Assembly: GCA_900298995.1 (NCBI GenBank)
Contig: OMIC01000029.1
Coordinates: forward strand, 1-64,000
Reading direction: 5' to 3'
Length of the DNA stretch: 64,000 nt
From: Hyphomicrobiaceae bacterium
GTDB taxonomy: Bacteria > Pseudomonadota > Alphaproteobacteria > Rhizobiales > Aestuariivirgaceae
Positions 35,977 to 46,406 of the stretch are shown here, one piece after another. Position 1 is the first letter of the stretch. Each line of letters starts with the position of its first letter. The position numbers and the translations under genes were made by a program. The notes under the pieces are model-generated. The model did not search any database, was not told where the DNA came from, and was given only the letters and a program-made list of their open reading frames with translations.

Positions 35977-36046
35977 GATCCATCCGGTGCCGGGGCGACC
36001 CGGTCACTTTCCCAGCGGCGGATCAACCGGAAAAGGACAAGACCTC

Positions 36047-36802
36047 ATGGCTCTGCCAGAATTCACCATGCGTCAGCTTCTCGAAGCGGGCGTTCACTTC
36101 GGTCACCAGACGCATCGCTGGAATCCGAAGATGCGGAACTACATCTACGGTAGCCGCAACGGTATTCACATCATCGACCTGTCCCAGACCGTGCCCTTGC
36201 TGCACCAGGCTCTGGTCGCGGTCTCGGACACGGTGGCCAAGGGTGGCCGCGTGTTGTTTGTCGGCACCAAGCGTTCAGCCTCGGAGCAGGTGGCGGATGC
36301 GGCCAAGCGGTCGGCCCAGTACTATGTCAATTCACGCTGGCTGGGCGGCACGCTGACCAACTGGAAGACCATTTCCCACTCCATCAAGACCCTGCGCACC
36401 GTCGATGAGACGCTCTCGAAGGAAAACTCCGGTCTCACCAAGCGCGAGCTGCTCGAACTCACCCGCACCAAGGAAAAGCTCGACAAGGCTCTGGGCGGTA
36501 TCAAGGACATGGGCGGCACGCCGGACATCGTCTTCGTGATCGACACCAACAAGGAGCAGATTGCCATCAAGGAGGCGAACCGGCTTGGCATTCCGGTGAT
36601 CGCAGTCATCGACACCAACTCCGACCCTGCCGGCGTCACCTTCCCGATCCCGGGCAATGACGACGCGGGGCGCGCCGTGGCACTCTATTGCGACCTGATC
36701 GCGCGGGCCTGCATCGAAGGCATCTCGCAGGCCCAGTCTGGCGCCGGCGTCGATGTCGGCGCGTCCGAGAACCCCGTTGCCGAGGACGTGTCCGCCGCCT
36801 GA
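36047..36802 (+). CDS. rpsB: 30S ribosomal protein S2
   Basis: A 251-residue S2 protein of the small ribosomal subunit head/platform. The conserved start [20 protein letters not shown] is followed by [20 protein letters not shown] and [14 protein letters not shown]. The ATG at 36047 follows AAGGA by about 8 bp; a longer frame begins upstream but is not conserved. The tail after residue 235 is a short Ala/Gly/Glu extension common in alphaproteobacteria. It leads the rpsB-tsf pair, with a structured leader upstream. Confidence 0.98.
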
Positions 36803-36891
36803 TCCAGGCCCGGCTTCGTCACGCAATCGACAAATGGGCCTGCCGTAACGTCGCGGTGGGCCCAGTTCCTGCAAATCACAAGAGGTAGAAC

Positions 36892-37815
36892 ATGGCCGAG
36901 ATCACGGCTGGAATGGTCAAGGACCTGCGCGAGAAGACCGGCGTGGGCATGATGGACTGCAAGGCGGCGCTTGCCGCCACCAACGGCGACATGGAAGCCG
37001 CCGTCGATTGGCTGCGTGCCAAGGGGCTGGCCAAGGCCGCCAAGAAGTCGACCCGCGTGGCCGCCGAAGGTCTGGTTGCGGTTGCGGTTGACGGTACGAC
37101 CGGTGCGGTGGTCGAGGTCAATTCCGAAACCGACTTCGTGGCCCGCAACGAGAAGTTCCAGGCCATGGTCACGGAAATCTCGAAGCTGGCGCTGAAGGCC
37201 GATGGCAACACGGAAAAGCTGAAGACCATGCACATGCCGGGGTCATCGCATGCTGTTGCCGAATATGTGGCCGAACTGGTCGCCTCGATCGGCGAGAACA
37301 TGACGGTGCGCCGCACGGCCCTGCTCTCGGTGAAGGATGGCGTGATCGGATCCTATGTCCACAATCAGATCGCTCCCGGCGCTGGCAAGATCGGCGTGCT
37401 GGTGGCTCTTGAGTCGACCGGCAACAAGGCAGCACTGGCCGAGTTCGCCCGCCTGCTGTCGATGCATGTGGCTGCGACCAATCCCGTGGCCCTGACGCTT
37501 GAGCAGGTGCCGAAGGACGTGCTCGCACGTGAGAGCGCCATTCTCGAGGAAAAGAACGCCGGCAAGCCCGCCAATGTTCTGGAGAAGATCGTCGCCTCCG
37601 GGCTCAAGACCTTCGCGAAGGAGAACTGCCTCCTCGAGCAGGCCTATGTGCATGACGGCGCCAAGACCGTGACCCAGGCTATCGCCGAGGCTGCCAAGGC
37701 CGCGGGTGCGGACGTCAGGTTGACCGGCTTTGTTCGCATGCAGCTGGGCGAGGGCATCGAGAAGAAGGAAGACGACTTCGCCGCCGAGGTTGCCAAGATG
37801 TCCGGCGGCCAGTAG
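36892..37815 (+). CDS. tsf: Elongation factor Ts
   Basis: A 307-residue nucleotide exchange factor that regenerates EF-Tu-GTP. The N-terminal UBA-like domain has VKDLREKTGVGMMDCKAALA, and the core contains EVNSETDFVARNEKFQ, which contacts EF-Tu. Length and order of the two core subdomains are normal. AGAGG lies before the ATG. It follows rpsB by 89 bp and is followed by a strong terminator-like hairpin, so rpsB-tsf forms its own transcription unit. Confidence 0.98.
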   Translation: MAEITAGMVKDLREKTGVGMMDCKAALAATNGDMEAAVDWLRAKGLAKAAKKSTRVAAEGLVAVAVDGTTGAVVEVNSETDFVARNEKFQAMVTEISKLALKADGNTEKLKTMHMPGSSHAVAEYVAELVASIGENMTVRRTALLSVKDGVIGSYVHNQIAPGAGKIGVLVALESTGNKAALAEFARLLSMHVAATNPVALTLEQVPKDVLARESAILEEKNAGKPANVLEKIVASGLKTFAKENCLLEQAYVHDGAKTVTQAIAEAAKAAGADVRLTGFVRMQLGEGIEKKEDDFAAEVAKMSGGQ

Positions 37816-37842
37816 GCCTCGGGATACCACACGTCGGCAGAA

Positions 37843-37871
37843 GGGCTCCGGACAGGGGCCCTTTTCTTTTT
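37843..37871 (+). terminator. Rho-independent terminator after tsf
   Basis: GGGCTCC pairs with GGGGCCC (seven pairs including one G-T) around GGACA and is followed directly by TTTTCTTTTT. This is the clearest intrinsic terminator in the window and separates rpsB-tsf from pyrH and the envelope genes. Confidence 0.85.
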
Positions 37872-37937
37872 CGGGCCAGCGCGCATGACGAATCGCCTTG
37901 CCCGGCCTAATGTGCCGCTGCTTCAAGGGGTTCCGTG

Positions 37938-38657
37938 ATGGCGGTCAAGACATACAAGCGCATTCTGCTCAAACTCTCGGGCGAGGTCCTGATGGGCAGC
38001 CAGCCCTATGGGATCGATCTCGACACTGTCGGGCGGCTCGCCGACGAGGTGCTCGCCTGCGCGGCCACCGGCACGCAGGTGGCGCTGGTCATCGGCGGCG
38101 GCAACATCTTCCGCGGTGTCGCCGGAGCCGCCAAGGGCATGGACCGCGTCTCCGCCGATCACATGGGCATCATGGCGACGGTGATGAACGCGCTCGCCAT
38201 GCAGGGCGTGCTGACCCACAAGGGCATGGACGCCCGCGTGCTCTCGGCGATCGCCATGCCGACGGTCTGCGAGACCTATTCGCGCGCCAAGGGCATCCAC
38301 CATCTTGAGGCCGGGCGGGTGATCATCTGCGCGGCTGGCACGGGGCTTCCCTTCTTCACCACCGACACTGGCGCAGCCCTCCGCGCCGCCGAACTGGGCT
38401 GTGACGCGCTGTTCAAGGGAACGAGCGTCGACGGCGTCTATTCCGCCGATCCCAAGACCGACCCCAGCGCCCGGCGGTTCGACCGCATCACCTTCGGGGA
38501 AATCCTGGCGCGTGACCTGCGCATCATGGATCCTGCCGCCATCGCCCTTGCGCGGGACAACGGGATTCCGGTAGTTGTCTTCTCCATCCGCAAGCCCGGC
38601 GCCGTGGTCGAAGTGGTCAATGGTGGCGGGCGGTTTACGACCGTAACGAAGGACTGA
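37938..38657 (+). CDS. pyrH: Uridylate kinase
   Basis: A 239-residue hexameric amino acid kinase-fold enzyme that phosphorylates UMP to UDP. The N-terminal [20 protein letters not shown] is the phosphate-binding region, [18 protein letters not shown] binds nucleotide, and [16 protein letters not shown] and STDPKT-like [12 protein letters not shown] are conserved. The ATG at 37938 has AAGGGG upstream; a GTG one codon earlier is also possible. It opens the series pyrH-frr-uppS-cdsA, with gaps of only a few bases. Confidence 0.97.
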
Positions 38658-38661
38658 CGAC

Positions 38662-39228
38662 ATGGCACAGCCCCAGCCCTACAATGCGCAAGACATCAAG
38701 CGCCGCATGCATGGCGCGGTCGAGGCGCTGAAGCATGATTTCGGCGGACTGCGCACCGGACGCGCTTCGTCCAGCCTCCTTGAACCCCTGCAGGTCGATG
38801 CCTATGGCGCCAACATGCCGATCACCCAGGTCGGTTCGATCACGGTGCCTGAGCCGCGCATGCTGCAGATCAACGTCTGGGACCGCGGACTGGTCGTGGC
38901 CGTCGAAAAGGCGATCCGCGCCTCGAACCTCGGCCTCAACCCACAGACCGAGGGCCAGGTCATCCGGCTGCGCATGCCCGACCTCACGCAGGAGCGGCGC
39001 AAGGAACTGGTCAAGGTCGCGCATCAATATGCCGAGAAGGCGCGGGTGGCTGCGCGCAATGTCCGCCGAGACGGCATGGATCACCTGAAGCAACTCGAGA
39101 AGGCTCATCTCATGAGCGAGGATGACCATAAGAAGAAGGCCGACGAGGTCCAGAAGATGACCGACGACACGATCAAGGAGATCGAGCAGGCCCTCAAGTC
39201 CAAAGAGCAAGAGATCATGCAGGTCTGA
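38662..39228 (+). CDS. frr: Ribosome recycling factor
   Basis: A 188-residue tRNA-shaped protein that, with EF-G, splits the post-termination ribosome. The three-helix bundle and small beta domain are seen in the order [35 protein letters not shown], and [19 protein letters not shown]. The invariant Arg in RTGRAS is present. It starts 4 bp after the pyrH stop, so translational coupling is likely. Length is normal. Confidence 0.98.
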
Positions 39229-39244
39229 GGCGGGTTCGGGCTCA

Positions 39245-39979
39245 ATGACGGCGAGTGCTTCCAGCGGCGGACCTCCCCGGCACGTCGCCATCATCATGGA
39301 TGGCAACGGACGTTGGGCCGCAATGCGTGGCCAGCCGCGCTCCGCAGGCCACCGTCAGGGTGTGGAAGCGCTGCGCCGCACGGTGCGCGCTGCCTCCGAC
39401 ATGGGCATCGGCGTTCTGACACTCTACTCGTTCAGTACCGAGAACTGGTCGCGGCCGGCGGGGGAGGTTCGCTTCCTTCTGGAACTCCTGCGCCGCTTCA
39501 TCCGCACCGATGTCGCTGAACTCCATCAGTCCAATGTGCGCATCATGGTGATCGGCGACCGCGACGGTCTGGAGCCCGCGCTGCGCAAGCTCTTCGAGGA
39601 AGCCGAGGCCCTGACGCGCGAGAATACCGCGCTCAAGCTGGTCATCGCCTTCAATTACGGTGGCCGTCAGGAGATCACCCGCGCGGTACAGGCTCTGGCC
39701 AAGAAAGTGGCCGAGGGCAAGATTGCGCCTGCAGACATCCCCCCCGCCGTGATCGGCAATCACCTCGACACCGGAGGGCTGCCGGAGCCTGACCTTCTCA
39801 TCCGTACCGGCGGTGAGCAGCGGCTGTCCAACTATCTGCTCTGGCAATGCGCCTATACGGAATTCGTGTTCCTGCCCGACTACTGGCCTGATTTCGATGC
39901 AGACCGGCTGCGCCACGCGGTGGAGGCCTTTCGGCGCCGGGACCGGCGCTTCGGCGGGCTGACCGCCCAGACCGCGTGA
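39245..39979 (+). CDS. uppS: Isoprenyl (undecaprenyl) diphosphate synthase
   Basis: A 244-residue cis-prenyltransferase that makes the C55 lipid carrier for peptidoglycan and surface polysaccharides. The catalytic Asp is in [19 protein letters not shown] at the N-terminus, with [11 protein letters not shown] next, [12 protein letters not shown] in the middle, and [20 protein letters not shown] near the C-terminus, which binds the second diphosphate. It overlaps cdsA by 4 bp (GTGA), indicating coupled translation. Confidence 0.97.
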
Positions 39980-40824
39980 TCGGAGTGCCCGGTTCCTCCG
40001 ATGCAAGATGGGGTGACCTCGGAGTCCGCGCACTCTCGGCTGCTGTCCTGATCCCTGCCGTTCTGGCGGATGTCTGGGCTGGGGGTATCTGGTTTCATCT
40101 CTTCGTCGCGCTGATCGGCGTTCTGATGGCTCAGGAATGGGTCGCAATCGTCCATCGCGGCGATCCGCTGCAATTTGCCCTGCATGCGGCCGGGGCCATG
40201 TGCGGTGCGCTGCTGCCGCTTGATGTGGGGCTCGGAGGCGGACTCGCTGCCATCGTCGTCCTGGTCCTTGCCTCGGCTGGGCTTGCCGCAGTCCGCGCGC
40301 CGGGCGGGGCGGCGTGGAGCTATCTCGGCGTGCTCTATGTTTCGGTTCCCCCCATTGCGCTGGTGCTGCTGCGGGAAGACCCCGATCATGGAATTGCAGC
40401 CATCGGGATGGTCATGGTCATGGTCTGGGCGGCCGATACCTTCGCCTATTTCTTCGGCCGCATCCTCGGCGGACCCAAACTTGCGCCGCGCATCAGCCCG
40501 AAGAAGACCTGGGCGGGGCTTGCGGGCGCCATGACGGGAAGTGCGCTGGCCGGCCTCCTGGTGGGCGTGTGGCTCGCGGTTCCCTCACTGGCAGGACTGG
40601 TCGTGGTGGCGGCATTGCTGGCGCTCGTGGAACAAGCCGGCGACCTGTTCAAATCGGCCATGAAGCGTCACTATGGCGTGAAGGACTCTGGATCGCTGAT
40701 TCCCGGCCATGGTGGCGTCATCGACAGGGTCGATGGGCTGGTCGCAGTTGCCGTGGCGGCGGCACTTGTCGGCGCCTGGCGGGCTGGTGCCGATCACGCG
40801 GGAGCCGGCCTCCTGCTCTGGTGA
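39976..40824 (+). CDS. cdsA: Phosphatidate cytidylyltransferase
   Basis: A 282-residue membrane enzyme that makes CDP-diacylglycerol, the precursor of all phospholipids. About eight hydrophobic helices are present. The family signature is at the C-terminus: [16 protein letters not shown] and [20 protein letters not shown] followed by [17 protein letters not shown], containing the metal-binding Asp residues. It starts with GTG overlapping the uppS stop. In many relatives dxr follows; here rseP comes next after 113 bp. Confidence 0.95.
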
Positions 40825-40937
40825 CCAGCCACGTCCCCGTCGAAATCTTGCCGCATTGGTGGCATCGACTGGAGTTGCGCGCGTCTGGCGTGTAGTGGCA
40901 GTGGTCTTGGTCTCCAGGGGGAGCCGGAAAGTGTGAG

Positions 40938-42086
40938 ATGGACATTCTGAACTTCCTGCATCTGCCGCTTGGCACCCTGATCTATTATGCGGTGCCCTTC
41001 CTCGTGGCGCTGACTGTCATCGTGTTCATTCATGAACTCGGACATTTTCTGGTCGCGCGCTGGTGCGGCGTGGATGTTGAATGCTTCTCCATGGGTTTCG
41101 GTCGCGAGATCTTCGGCTGGCACGACAGCAAGGGAACACGTTGGAAGGTGGGTTGGATTCCGCTCGGCGGTTACGTAAAGTTCCGGGGAGATGCCAATTC
41201 GGCGAGCATTCCCAGTGCTGAGGCGCTGGCCAGGGCTGCCGGTGATCCCGGCAACTTTCACGGCAAGCCAGTCTGGCAGCGTGCCGCAGTTGTGGCGGCT
41301 GGTCCGATTGCAAACTTCCTCCTCGCCATAACCATCTTCGCCACCCTGTTCATGGCTGTCGGTGCGCCGATCATCGAACCGCGGGTCGATGAGGTCCTGC
41401 CGGGTAGCGCCGCGGAACGGGCTGGTATCCGCGCTGGCGACCTCATCGTGTCGATCGATGGCAAGGCGATCGATGACTTTGCACAATTGCAGCAGGCTGT
41501 CGTCACGCGGGCGGGCGAAGAACTGACTGTGGTGATCAATCGCAACGGAGAGCGGCTCAGCCTTCCCATCGTGCCCGACCTGCGCGAGGAATCGGACAAT
41601 TTCGGCGGAAAGATGCGCATTGGGCTTCTTGGTGTCCGGAACAATCCCGATGGTCCGGTCCGGTTCGAGCCGATGAGTCCGCTCAAGGCCCTTGAAAGGG
41701 CGGTCGAGCGCACCTGGTTCATCGTTGATACAACTTTTAGTTACATCGGCAAGTTGGCCATGGGTCGCGAGAGCGCGGATCAACTCGGGGGCCCGATCTC
41801 TATTGCCAAGGCGGCGGGAGATGCAGCCTCGCTGGGAGTGTTCCAGTTCGTGACGGTTGTTGCCTTTTTGTCGGTCAGTATAGGCCTGCTTAACCTTTTC
41901 CCAATCCCTATGCTGGATGGTGGACACTTGGTTTACTATGCGATCGAAGCGGTGCGTGGCAGGCCGTTGGGGGAGAACGCGCAGGAATGGGGTTTCCGGA
42001 TCGGTTTCTCTCTGGTGATCATGCTCATGCTCGTGGGCACCTGGAATGACGTCATTCGGGTGGCAACCGTGTGGTTTGGCGGCTAG
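40938..42086 (+). CDS. rseP: RseP-type site-2 zinc metalloprotease
   Basis: A 382-residue intramembrane protease. The zinc motif HELGHFLVARWCGV is in the first helix (about residues 32-45), and the distal metal-binding LNLFPIPMLDGGHLVYY is near residue 325. Between them is one PDZ domain with VLPGSAAERAGIRAGDLIVS (about 153-172). E. coli RseP cuts the anti-sigma factor RseA and signal peptide remnants; substrates here are unknown. It lies just before bamA, linking it to envelope maintenance, as in most proteobacteria. Confidence 0.96.
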   Translation: MDILNFLHLPLGTLIYYAVPFLVALTVIVFIHELGHFLVARWCGVDVECFSMGFGREIFGWHDSKGTRWKVGWIPLGGYVKFRGDANSASIPSAEALARAAGDPGNFHGKPVWQRAAVVAAGPIANFLLAITIFATLFMAVGAPIIEPRVDEVLPGSAAERAGIRAGDLIVSIDGKAIDDFAQLQQAVVTRAGEELTVVINRNGERLSLPIVPDLREESDNFGGKMRIGLLGVRNNPDGPVRFEPMSPLKALERAVERTWFIVDTTFSYIGKLAMGRESADQLGGPISIAKAAGDAASLGVFQFVTVVAFLSVSIGLLNLFPIPMLDGGHLVYYAIEAVRGRPLGENAQEWGFRIGFSLVIMLMLVGTWNDVIRVATVWFGG

Positions 42087-42187
42087 CCGGGCCCGGGGAA
42101 GTTTTGTTTGCAAAGGGTGGCTGGGAGGGTAAAACCTCAGCCGCGAAAGAGTCGTCTTGGGCGGATGCCCGCGGAAGTGGCGAATTG

Positions 42188-44539
42188 ATGCGTTGTCGGT
42201 TAGTATTCGTTTTTGTTGCGTCCCTGTTCCTGAGTTTGGCAGGGCCTCTTCTGGTCCCGCAGGTCGCGCTATCGATTGCGCAGGCGGAGACCATTTCGTC
42301 CATCGTCGTGGAAGGCAATCAGCGTGTCGAGGTCGACACGGTGCTGTCCTATGTCCAGATATCGCCTGGCGAAAGCGTGGACCCTGACAAGATCGACGCC
42401 TCCGTGAAGGCGCTCTTCCAGACCGGCCTCTTCTCCGATGTTCAGATCACGCGCCGCGGTACGGCCCTGGTGGTGCGTGTCGAAGAAAACCCGATGGTCA
42501 ATCAGGTGAACTTCGAGGGCAACAAGGAAGTCAAGGACACCGACCTCGCCAAGGAAGTCGAATTGCGTGAACGCATGATGTTCACGCGCGCCAAGGTTCT
42601 CAGCGACGTGAACCGCGTCATCGCGGTCTACCGTCGCGCCGGCTACTATTCGGTCAAGGTCTCCCCGAAGATCATCCGTCTCCCGCAGAACCGGGTTGAC
42701 CTCGTCTTTGAGATTCAGGAAGGCGACGAAACCAAGGTCAAGCGTCTCGAATTCGTCGGCAACAAGGCCTTCAGTTCCAATACGCTCAAGGGTGTAGTTG
42801 GTACCCAGGAGTACTCCTGGTGGAGGTTCTTCAACCGCAACGACAATTACGACGCTGACCGCCTCGAGTACGACAAGGAATTGCTGCGGCGCTACTATCT
42901 GCGCAACGGTTTTGCGGATGTTCGGGTGCTGTCGGCCGATGCGGTGCTGGCGCCAGACGGCTCCGGTTTCACGATCACCTACACCATCGAGGAAGGCCCG
43001 CGCTACAAGGTGGCCGATGTTGCCGTCAATGTCGGCGATGCCCAACTCGAGACTGATCTTCTCGTCAAGCAGGTCAAGACGGGCGTCGGCGATTATTTCA
43101 ACTCGACGAAGGTCGACAAGACCGTCGAAAACCTCACACTTGAGGCTGCACGGCAAGGTTTCGTGTTCGCCCGTGTCAATCCGGACGTCCAGCGCAATGG
43201 CGGCGGCGACACGCTGAACATCACATATAATATCGTCGAGGGTCCGCGCACCTACATCGAGCGGATCGACATCATCGGAAATTTCCGCACCGAAGACCAG
43301 GTGATCCGGAGAGAGTTGCAACTCTATGAAGGCGATGCCTTCAACCGGGTCATGATCGAGCGTGCCCGCCGACGTTTGACCGCACTCGACTTCTTCGAGA
43401 AGGTCGACTTCCGGGATGAGCAGGGCTCTGCCCCCGACCGCGTGATCCTGACCGTTGAAGTTCAGGAAAAATCCACAGGTTCGGTCAACTTCTCGATCGG
43501 CTATTCGACCTCAGAATATGTGGTCGGCTCGATCGCGCTGGAGGAGCGAAACTTCCTCGGCAAGGGTTACGACGTCAAGCTCAACACCACCGCCAGCTGG
43601 TTCCGTCAGAACGTCACGTTCAGCTTCACCAACCCCTATTTCATGGACCTCCCGATTTCGGCTGGCTTCGATGTCTTTGCGACCAATGCCGACAACCAGC
43701 AGGAGTCGAACTACAATAGCCAGCAGATCGGTTTTGCGCTGCGGACAGGCTTCCGTCTCGATCAGAACAGTGGTCTGAGCCTGAAATACGGGCTGACGTG
43801 GCGCGACGTCGACGGTATCGACAAATACAGCGCTGCGCCCGCCGTCATCGAAGCGCAGGGCAAGTCGATGAAGTCCTATGTCACCGGCACATATACCTGG
43901 GACAATCTCGACAACCCGATGCTCCCGACCAATGGTTTCCGCGGCCAGCTCGAGGGCGAAATCGCGGGTCTCGGGGGCGATGTCTACTTCGCCAGCGTTG
44001 AGGCGCATGGCTGGTACTTCATTCCGCTCTACGAAGAGTCGGTGGTGCTGAAGCTCGAAGGCAACGCGGGTCAGATGGTGCCTTTCGCGGGTGACGACGT
44101 GCCGCTCCAGGACCGTTACTTCAAGGGTGCCGATACCTTCCGCGGATTCCAGCCCGCCGGTGTGGGGCCTCGCCAGGTCGGCAACGACGGACAGACGGAT
44201 GCCATCGGCGGCACCACCTATGCGATCGGTACGGTCGAGGTGAACTTCCCGCTGGGACTGCCCGAGGAATGGGGCATCGCCGGATCCGTGTTCAGCGATT
44301 TCGGCACTGTGTTCGGATCGGAGACGAAGTCAGAGGACATGAACACCGGACAGTGCATCTATGACCCGGTCAAGAACTGCAAGGTCTTCGACACAGCGTC
44401 TCTTCGTGCATCGATCGGTGCTGGCATTGTCTGGCAGTCGCCCTTCGGTCCGCTCCGTTTCGAAGGTGCCTATCCCTTGCTCAAGACCGACTACGACAAG
44501 ACCGAGTATTTCCGGTTCTCTGTGGGCACACGTTTCTAG
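42188..44539 (+). CDS. bamA: Outer membrane protein assembly factor BamA
   Basis: A 783-residue Omp85 protein that inserts beta-barrel proteins into the outer membrane. A signal peptide (to QAE near residue 36) precedes five POTRA domains, seen as repeats such as ISSIVVEGNQRVEVDTVLSY and KRLEFVGNKAFSSNTLKG (to about residue 375). The C-terminal 16-strand barrel includes DTFRGFQPAGVGPR, the conserved loop-6 xRGF, and ends in Phe (FRFSVGTRF), the usual outer membrane signal. The ATG at 42188 is chosen for the signal peptide; a longer frame upstream is unlikely. lpxD, normally next, is missing. Confidence 0.97.
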   Translation: MRCRLVFVFVASLFLSLAGPLLVPQVALSIAQAETISSIVVEGNQRVEVDTVLSYVQISPGESVDPDKIDASVKALFQTGLFSDVQITRRGTALVVRVEENPMVNQVNFEGNKEVKDTDLAKEVELRERMMFTRAKVLSDVNRVIAVYRRAGYYSVKVSPKIIRLPQNRVDLVFEIQEGDETKVKRLEFVGNKAFSSNTLKGVVGTQEYSWWRFFNRNDNYDADRLEYDKELLRRYYLRNGFADVRVLSADAVLAPDGSGFTITYTIEEGPRYKVADVAVNVGDAQLETDLLVKQVKTGVGDYFNSTKVDKTVENLTLEAARQGFVFARVNPDVQRNGGGDTLNITYNIVEGPRTYIERIDIIGNFRTEDQVIRRELQLYEGDAFNRVMIERARRRLTALDFFEKVDFRDEQGSAPDRVILTVEVQEKSTGSVNFSIGYSTSEYVVGSIALEERNFLGKGYDVKLNTTASWFRQNVTFSFTNPYFMDLPISAGFDVFATNADNQQESNYNSQQIGFALRTGFRLDQNSGLSLKYGLTWRDVDGIDKYSAAPAVIEAQGKSMKSYVTGTYTWDNLDNPMLPTNGFRGQLEGEIAGLGGDVYFASVEAHGWYFIPLYEESVVLKLEGNAGQMVPFAGDDVPLQDRYFKGADTFRGFQPAGVGPRQVGNDGQTDAIGGTTYAIGTVEVNFPLGLPEEWGIAGSVFSDFGTVFGSETKSEDMNTGQCIYDPVKNCKVFDTASLRASIGAGIVWQSPFGPLRFEGAYPLLKTDYDKTEYFRFSVGTRF

Positions 44540-44615
44540 GGCGCGCAACGCCACGCCAGCAAGGATGCGGACGGTCCTTGCTACCGTCTGCAAATAATCG
44601 GGGGATCACGCAAGC

Positions 44616-45092
44616 ATGACCGAAGCCACACCCGCGCCGGATCTGAAGACGGCCGATATCGCGCGCATCATGAAGTTGCTGCCGCATCGCTATCCCTTCC
44701 TGCTGATCGACCGCATGTATGACCTGAACGGCGAGGAGAGCGGCGTTGCGGTCAAGAACGTCACGATCAACGAGCCGTTCTTTCAGGGACATTTCCCGGG
44801 CCGTCCGGTGATGCCCGGGGTGTTGCTGGTGGAGGCCATGGCCCAGGCGGCCGGAGCGCTGGTGCTCAATCACCTTGGCGATGAGCACGCCGGCAAGCTA
44901 GTGTTCTTCATGTCGATTGACAAGGCGCGCTTCCGGAAACCCGTGGGCCCCGGCGATACGGTGCATTTCCACGTCAAGCTGTCCAACAAGCGCCCGCCCG
45001 TGTGGAAGTACTGGGCCGAGGCGCATGTCGAGGGCAAGAAGGTTGCAGAGGCCGAGATCGGCGCCATGCTGATGAATGAGCGCGGCGGCTGA
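44616..45092 (+). CDS. fabZ: 3-hydroxyacyl-ACP dehydratase
   Basis: A 158-residue hot-dog fold enzyme that dehydrates 3-hydroxyacyl-ACP in fatty acid elongation. The N-terminal IMKLLPHRYPFLLIDRMYDL is typical, and the active site His and Glu lie in FFQGHFPGRPVMPGVLLVEA. Length is normal. In relatives fabZ sits between lpxD and lpxA; here bamA is 76 bp upstream and the convergent gltA stop 12 bp downstream, so it stands alone after the envelope operon. Confidence 0.97.
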   Translation: MTEATPAPDLKTADIARIMKLLPHRYPFLLIDRMYDLNGEESGVAVKNVTINEPFFQGHFPGRPVMPGVLLVEAMAQAAGALVLNHLGDEHAGKLVFFMSIDKARFRKPVGPGDTVHFHVKLSNKRPPVWKYWAEAHVEGKKVAEAEIGAMLMNERGG

Positions 45093-45104
45093 TCAGCAGA
45101 GCAT

Positions 45105-46406
45105 TCAGGACCCGCGGTTGACGATCGGCACGTAGTCGCGCCGCGGCTCGCCCGTATAAAGCTGACGCGGACGGCCGATCTTCTGGCCCGGATCCTCGAT
45201 CATTTCCTTCCACTGCGAAATCCAGCCCACGGTTCGCGCCAGCGCGAACAGCACGGTGAACATCGAGGTGGGGAAGCCGAGGGCCCGCAGGATGATGCCG
45301 GAGTAGAAATCGACGTTTGGGTAGAGCTTGCGCTCGATGAAGTACTGGTCAGAGAGCGCCGCCTTTTCAAGCTCGCGCGCTACCTCGAGCAGCGGATCGT
45401 TGACGATGCCGAGTTCGCCCAGCACCTCGTGCGCCGTCTTCTGCATGATCTTGGCGCGCGGGTCATAGTTCTTGTAGACGCGGTGTCCGAAGCCCATCAG
45501 CCGGATATGTGATGTCTTGTCCTTCACCTTGGCAATGAAGCCCGGTACATTTGCCGGATCACCGATCTGCTTCAGCATTTCGAGCGCCGCCTCATTTGCG
45601 CCGCCATGCGCCGGACCCCACAGGCAGGCGATGCCGGCCGCGATGCAGGCGAAGGGGTTGGCGCCGGACGAGCCGGCAAGCCTCACCGTTGAAGTCGAGG
45701 CATTCTGCTCGTGATCGGCGTGCAGGATGAAGATGCGGTCCATGGCGCGGGCGAGCACCGGGTTCACCACATAGTCCTCGCAGGGCACGGCGAAACACAT
45801 GCGCAGGAAGTTGCCGGCATAGGTCAGGCTGTTCTGTGGATAGATGAATGGCTGGCCAACGTGATACTTGTAGGCCATGGCGGCAATCGTCGGGAGCTTG
45901 GCGATCATGCGGTGGCAGGCGATTTCGCGCTGGCGCGGATCGTTGATGTCGGTTGAGTCGTGATAGAAGGCCGACATGGCGCCCACCACGGCGACCATCA
46001 CGGCCATCGGATGCGCGTCCCGGCGGAAGCCCTGGAAGAAGCGGGTCATCTGCTCATGGACCATGGTGTGGTAGGTGATGTGCTTCTGGAATTCCTTGCG
46101 CTGTGCGGCCGTCGGCAGATCGCCGTAATAGAGCAGGTAGCAGGTCTCGAGGAAGTCGCCGTGCTCGGCCAGCTGCTCGATGGGGTAGCCGCGATAGAGC
46201 AGGACGCCCTCGTCGCCATCGATGTAGGTGATCTTCGACTCGCAGGAAGCCGTCGAGGTGAAGCCGGGATCGAAGGTGAAGGAGCCGGTCTGGGCATAGA
46301 GCTTGCCGATGTCCACGACATCAGGCCCCATCGTTCCGCTACGGACCGGCATGTCCACCGTCATGCCATTGACCGAGAGGACTGCCTTCTTCGGATCGTC
46401 AGCCAT
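45105..46406 (-). CDS. gltA: Citrate synthase
   Basis: A 433-residue type II citrate synthase, the entry enzyme of the TCA cycle. The active-site His is in [18 protein letters not shown], a second in [18 protein letters not shown], and the catalytic Asp lies near [13 protein letters not shown]. The N-terminal beta domain (residues 1-60) marks the hexameric NADH-regulated class. It follows gltX by 131 bp in the same direction, the usual alphaproteobacterial order, and converges on fabZ. Confidence 0.98.

Follow-up and report, generated by a model that had tools for sequence, protein, structure and literature searches.

The stretch of DNA analysed here (64,000 nucleotides, hereafter the window) lies on contig 29 of G000, a genome of 2.99 Mb in 58 contigs that is 99.36% complete. 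It carries the conserved block that runs from rpsB to gltA (Table 1). An earlier note, made from the letters of the window, had stated that fabZ is flanked directly by bamA (76 bp) and gltA (12 bp) and that the lpx genes of this block are gone without a remnant. The ORF coordinates give exactly these distances, and no lpx homologue was matched at the junction in the window. The description of a block order that is otherwise kept (rpsB...rseP-bamA-fabZ-gltA) also agrees with the ORFs, with the addition that dxr is absent too. The true start of bamA may sit further in, near 42185; a bamA match was obtained in 115 of the 120 genomes in the genome search. The window's fabZ shares 83% identity with that of a named metagenome-assembled genome (MAG; L001).

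Table 1. Features of the rpsB-gltA block in the window
Feature	Position	Strand	Evidence
rpsB-tsf-pyrH-frr-uppS-cdsA-rseP, conserved left part of the block	36044..42086	+	ORFs; order compared with relatives
bamA (outer-membrane protein assembly)	42071..44539	+	822-aa ORF
Scar 1a, 76-bp gap in place of the relatives' lpxD	44540..44615	.	Comparison with lipid-A-positive loci L158-L172
fabZ, retained	44616..45092	+	158-aa ORF
Scar 1b, 12-bp gap in place of the relatives' lpxA-lpxI-lpxB	45093..45104	.	Locus comparison
gltA (citrate synthase), convergent, right border of the scar	45105..46406	-	433-aa ORF, 3' end at 45105

The usual place of dxr is between cdsA and rseP, which corresponds to 40825-40937 in the window. 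Within the family of G000 (f1, 69 genomes sampled), the gene is present there in the loci seen from genera g2, g3, g4, g8, g9, and g10, as it is in most other families, and absent in those from g1, g5, g6, and g7, which form one clade; it is also absent there in G112 and G117. The step may be carried out by another enzyme.

Loss of the lipid A genes

The survey set comprised 120 genomes, the 69 of f1 and 51 representatives of other families. In LpxC-positive families of the order, bamA-lpxD-fabZ-lpxA-lpxI was the arrangement at all 19 loci retrieved, with lpxB visible in 18 and gltA in 15, the rest ending or breaking before it. We also inspected the fabZ locus in 63 LpxC-negative genomes, that is, 56 of the 69 of f1, six clade relatives, and G118. 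Here fabZ lies no more than 400 bp from bamA in 59. Among these, gltA is the next marker in 31 and surA in 3, G033 shows an lpxA fragment, and the other 24 have no marker within the stretch. As for the four exceptions, gltA comes next in G037 and G103 and only after 4.7 kb in G045, and no marker was seen in G025. The lpx-free junction recurs in related genera, the comparison that the earlier note had suggested.

Two of these loci are unusual. The bamA-gltA interval of G103 (L153 11187-11282) is without fabZ itself. In G033 (L140 9071-10047), bamA is followed by a foreign-looking fabZ and the lpxA fragment at the contig end; this fabZ is only 60% identical to that of the nearest f1 relative, and the fragment is, among the loci compared, closest to non-alphaproteobacteria. 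Either a foreign acquisition or a chimeric contig would account for it.

The earlier note left two readings, the relocation of the lpx genes or an envelope without lipid A. LpxA, LpxB, LpxC, and KdtA were sought across G000, and none gave a match, although the same searches give matches in the E. coli and Caulobacter controls. This rules out relocation for lpxA and lpxB and shows that LpxC and KdtA are gone as well, and of the two readings the lipid-A-free envelope is the one supported; LptD, also among the genes to be looked for, was found. The pattern extends to the whole family. LpxC scored above the cut-off in 0/69 f1 genomes vs 44/51 representatives of other families, KdtA in 0/69 vs 41/51, and the LpxA C-terminal domain was found at full length in 0/69 vs 43/51; in the subset searched for LpxB, the counts were 0/25 and 11/16. 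A miss is not always a loss, as LpxC-positive genomes also gave misses for KdtA (3/44), LpxB (3/14), and LptD (2/44). Outside f1, seven representatives are LpxC negative: G072, G082, G103, G104, G105, G114, and G118.

It could be supposed that lipid A synthesis continues through enzymes that have moved or escaped recognition. The genome-wide search covered LpxA, LpxB, LpxC, and KdtA, a faint and partial LpxC match occurs in G044 (82% complete), scoring 20.6 bits where the cut-off is 27, and there is the lpxA fragment of G033. However, a genome as complete as G000 (99.4%) is missing four proteins of the pathway at once, and LpxC and KdtA are above the cut-off nowhere in f1 while the searches recover their targets in the controls and in 41 to 44 of the 51 other families (11 of 16 for LpxB). 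We therefore consider continued synthesis very improbable, and the absence of lipid A from the group as good as established. Five g3 genomes gave partial LpxA-domain matches, which lie in long open frames and span 40-45 of the 82 domain positions; three of these matches exceed the domain cut-off. Seven families of Hyphomicrobiales have lost lipid A synthesis: lpxD and lpxA-lpxI-lpxB around fabZ, LpxC, and KdtA.

Retention of LptD and exchange of the LptF/LptG pump

LptD was found in 67/69 f1 genomes, in 6/6 of the other clade families, and in 42/44 LpxC-positive genomes, and not in G118. The two misses in f1 are G050, where LptD is cut by the contig end, and G060, which is 78% complete. The 756-aa LptD frame of G000 carries both an LptD domain (PF04453, 181 bits) and an OstA-like one (OstA_2, 22.0 bits, the cut-off being 21.2). 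A sequence profile built from 25 LptDs, with the G000 protein at its head, aligns with solved LptD chains from profile position 65 to 744. Three cysteines (C173, C176, and C711 in G000 numbering), which we take to correspond to the disulphides of E. coli LptD, are invariant in 25/25 LptDs from genomes with and without lipid A. The AlphaFold model of the G000 protein is nearly all strand (mean pLDDT of 80.4, pTM of 0.62). Of 20 named genomes searched, 18 have LptD, and those lacking it are an OCS116 MAG and a Rhodospirillales MAG (G141). In the latter (L023), only an lpxI-like gene was seen at fabZ. A Defluviicoccus MAG (L029) has LptD and no lpx match beside fabZ.

The surroundings of lptD carry a second scar. 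Between pepA and lptD, lptF and lptG are present, with a gap of 2.5-5.5 kb, in 19/19 loci from genomes that retain lipid A genes (14 from LpxC-positive genomes of the order and five from named genomes with lpx at fabZ), whereas in 22/22 loci from genomes without them pepA and lptD are 93-871 bp apart and neither lptF nor lptG occurs in the stretch. The latter comprise 17 LpxC-negative clade genomes and five named loci, namely, two Alphaproteobacteria MAGs, a Sphingobium, a Sphingopyxis, and a Paracoccaceae MAG, whose lipid A status was judged by their fabZ loci. Eight loci without one or both flanks were excluded, four LpxC negative (L211, L212, L232, and L304) and four named (L273, L274, L280, and L281). 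In genus g3 (L304, L305, and L308), lptD-surA adjoins fabZ-bamA and faces it, so that both scars are now neighbours, and pepA lies beyond lptD in L305 and L308.

The second scar also bears on the proposal that the missing genes are an assembly gap or a mis-join. The named relatives are mostly MAGs, which would favour such an explanation, but the first junction lies inside contigs, fabZ directly follows bamA in 59/63 genomes, and the matching pepA-lptD scar is found at every one of the 22 loci. We give this proposal practically no credence, and the recurrence of the junction rules out an artefact.

LptF/LptG domains were nevertheless found in 69/69 f1 genomes, 6/6 relatives, and 42/44 LpxC-positive genomes, and not in G118. 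G000 has two matches in all (L173 14064-16354, contig 42, minus strand), and this, the only LptF/LptG pair found, adjoins the ceramide cluster aasR-cerR-acpR-spt. In the trees of LptF (45 rows) and LptG (46 rows), sphingolipid-linked and LptD-linked copies split with support of 100/100. These final trees omit the LptF of G087, which is very long, and three copies whose neighbours are not clear; with them included, the sphingolipid group needs two changes for LptF, an unplaced copy of G103 falling inside it, and one for LptG. By the trees and by the absence of the genes between pepA and lptD, the LptF/LptG of G000 are not of the LptD-linked (LPS) kind, and the possibility that LptD has been retained together with an LPS-type pump is ruled out on the same two grounds. 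The G000 copies are of the LptF2/LptG2 cluster kind, as they group with the Caulobacter cluster copies and sit by spt and cerS. Extra LptF/LptG matches (4-5 per genome) were seen in G103 (L184), G104, and G082, and the extra LptF of G103 sits at the base of the group's sphingolipid-type copies.

The two kinds can occur together. Both are present in the LpxC-positive G074, G101, and G087, which carry SPT-like genes of 581, 677, and 467 bits, respectively, and in Caulobacter BP25 and Gluconobacter, each with lpx at fabZ. The cluster LptF of G087 has diverged strongly. An exception is G117, which is LpxC positive with an SPT-like gene of 466 bits and only two LptFG copies. The first helices of LptF and LptG touch LPS. 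At positions 31-32 (G000 numbering), the sphingolipid-kind LptF is acidic in 26/26 rows and then basic in 25/26, and the LptD-linked LptF has Thr, Ala, or Val followed mostly by Gln (12/20).

In the seven-family group, the LptD-linked lptF-lptG pair is gone, and the LptF/LptG that are present form a lineage apart, located next to a ceramide cluster in most of the cases that could be placed. The losses, the kept LptD, and the swapped pump with its neighbours are direct observations. The route of LPS export would thus persist with a changed cargo-loading pump.

The ceramide cluster and the proposed cargo

The cluster of G000 encodes an acyl-AMP ligase (AasR-like, 605 aa), an SDR (CerR-like), an acyl carrier protein (AcpR-like), a serine palmitoyltransferase (SPT), and a DAGK-type kinase, followed by LptG, LptF, a metallophosphoesterase, and a protein of 343 aa that matched no family. 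The last occupies the place of CerS and is bCerS-like (48% identity to the protein of Caulobacter BP25). The SPT scores 579 bits against a curated cut-off of 500 (NF047599), and among solved structures it is closest to SPTs (443 bits), the first non-SPT following at about 204. The earlier note had suggested that a lipid-A-free envelope might contain sphingolipids, and a ceramide cluster with an SPT above the curated cut-off supports that suggestion for G000 at the level of its genes.

The SPT family search matches all 14 controls at E <= 0.001 via related enzymes, so that only the score separates SPT from its kin, and we used a threshold of our own of 430 bits beside the curated one of 500. 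SPT exceeds 430 bits in 64/69 f1 genomes (61 of them >500), in 6/6 relatives, in 4/44 LpxC-positive genomes, and not in G118. The f1 genomes without such a match are G010 (a partial one of 337 bits) and G012, G035, G044, and G066, these four being 74-88% complete. Among other families, SPT thus accompanies 6/7 LpxC-negative vs 4/44 LpxC-positive genomes (Fisher p of 8e-5, uncorrected for kinship; one representative was taken per family, and six of the seven LpxC-negative ones are one group). LptF/LptG lie within 15 kb of SPT on one contig in 38 and on different contigs in 20 of the 58 f1 genomes that, among those listed, have places for both.

The gene order of the G000 cluster matches CC_1165-CC_1154 of Caulobacter crescentus (aasR, cerR, acpR, spt, ceramide kinase, phosphoesterase, lptF2, lptG2, and cerS), as given in PMC11324152. 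The identities to Caulobacter sp. BP25 are 54% for SPT, 51% for AasR, 48% for the bCerS-like protein, 44% for AcpR, 41% for CerR, 38% for the phosphoesterase, 33% for LptF, 30% for the kinase, and 29% for LptG. Caulobacter BP25 has lpx at fabZ and LptD-linked LptF/LptG, whereas G000 is without both. The C. crescentus sphingolipid cluster (CC_1168-CC_1152) includes LptC2, LptF2, and LptG2 and has further head-group genes (PMC11324152); no LptC2 and no further head-group genes were seen in the G000 cluster, which has only the kinase and the phosphoesterase. In G041, the cluster additionally encodes an ABC exporter, two NTP transferases, and a protein resembling CDP-alcohol phosphotransferases, none of which was seen in the cluster of G000; judged by eye, G014, G072, and G105 have ORFs resembling several of these extra proteins at matching places. 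In PMC11324152, LptC2, LptF2, and LptG2 are proposed as probable sphingolipid transporters, the route being called unknown there and transport lying outside that study; PMC11087976 likewise states that no sphingolipid flippase or transporter has been identified.

On these grounds, we suggest that a sphingolipid replaced lipid A and that the Lpt bridge was kept to export it, a reading that the gene content makes probable and that is the best of those considered. For the cargo, the parts of LptA, LptB, LptC, and LptE, and the surface lipid, we infer the following scheme. The outer leaflet would be built from a sphingolipid. AasR, AcpR, and Spt would form keto-sphinganine, the bCerS-like protein would acylate this product, and CerR would reduce it, while the lipid-kinase-like protein probably phosphorylates the lipid. 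The sphingolipid-type LptF/LptG, with LptB, would then extract the sphingolipid from the inner membrane and hand it on to LptD by way of an LptC/LptA bridge, and LptD would place it in the outer leaflet.

A different cargo has to be considered. It may be that lipid A was lost and that what LptD and the cluster LptF/LptG carry is something else, either a different glycolipid or a polysaccharide lipid, the sphingolipid reaching the outer membrane otherwise. The sphingolipid cargo is deduced from gene neighbourhood only, and Borrelia has an Lpt-like system without LPS for which modelling points to glycolipids, as far as the abstract of PMC10353723 describes it. However, such LptF/LptG sit by ceramide genes not only in the clade but also in Caulobacter, Gluconobacter, and sphingomonads, the cluster LptF/LptG are a separate lineage, and G118 is without both Lpt and SPT. 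We therefore regard another cargo as unlikely and retain export of a sphingolipid as the preferred reading.

Number of losses and comparison with other lineages

How often lipid A was lost was approached with concatenated marker trees. In a tree of 2,890 columns, from which G074 was left out for having too few columns, f1 groups with G072, G103, G104, G105, and G114 (SH-aLRT of 99), G082 stands beside the LpxC-negative group (84), and G118 lies apart from it and joins an OCS116 MAG (100). A tree of 4,783 columns places G074 within the group, together with G105 (82), and leaves G082 without a position. Constraining the LpxC-negative rows together, without G074, was not rejected (p-AU of 0.70). 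As G074 possibly belongs inside the group, one loss is possible, and two or more are possible too.

G074 is LpxC positive, yet its cluster genes (L187 and L218) and markers fall among LpxC-negative families. It has LpxC, KdtA, an LpxK-like gene, and both LptFG kinds, and bamA, LpxA, and LpxB were not found in it; it possibly represents an intermediate state. G118 is a further loss of the lipid A genes, separate from the group. LpxC, SPT, LptD, and LptFG are all absent from it, and bamA is kept (L152). Its sister, the OCS116 MAG NORP83 (L025), is without lpx at fabZ, without LptD, and without LptFG. In the G118/OCS116 lineage, LPS and its exporter have both been lost and bamA kept. That a genome without lipid A and without SPT is also without LptD and LptFG counts, as a contrast, for the export of a sphingolipid through LptD.

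If LptD is kept for a sphingolipid, LPS-lacking sphingomonads should keep LptD and the cluster pump only. Sphingomonas paucimobilis is reportedly one such sphingomonad. As in G000, the fabZ locus of two Sphingobium genomes and one Sphingopyxis genome is free of lpx; each of the three has a single LptD and two LptFG matches that adjoin sphingolipid genes, and the pepA-lptD scar is present in both of those examined for it (a Sphingobium and a Sphingopyxis). They differ from the clade in belonging to another order with a separate place in the marker trees, and their lipid A status is read from the fabZ locus alone. Judged by its loci, a Paracoccaceae MAG presents the same picture (no lpx at fabZ, two LptFG by sphingolipid genes, and LptD). 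Two Alphaproteobacteria MAGs (L018, L020, L317, and L318) that group with Sphingobium have both scars and have kept LptD. Borrelia burgdorferi resembles the clade in having an LptD-type bridge in an organism without LPS, but it is a spirochete, and the abstract of PMC10353723 describes no link to a serine palmitoyltransferase.

Taken more broadly, the evidence moderately favours the view that the Lpt bridge exports amphipathic lipids in general and that LptF/LptG determine its cargo. Alphaproteobacteria would repeatedly have swapped LPS for a sphingolipid, losing lipid A and the LPS-type pump and keeping LptD, and LptD would have been lost only when both cargos were gone. The group of the window would be the largest such case found here, its LptDs having carried only sphingolipid since the loss. 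Among the papers listed in our search of the open-licence PMC literature, neither this lipid-A-free group of Hyphomicrobiales nor the pump swap was found.

Lipid A is the usual outer lipid of Gram-negative cells and is often treated as essential, and a broad group of free-living bacteria related to rhizobia is seen here to lack it. In at least seven families, evolution has discarded LPS together with the pump that served it and retained the LPS translocon alongside a sphingolipid-linked pump, a natural case that makes one answer to the question of sphingolipid transport directly testable. The Lpt machine is a target of new antibiotics, and these genomes provide natural variants of LptD and of LptF/LptG for finding what sets the choice of its cargo.
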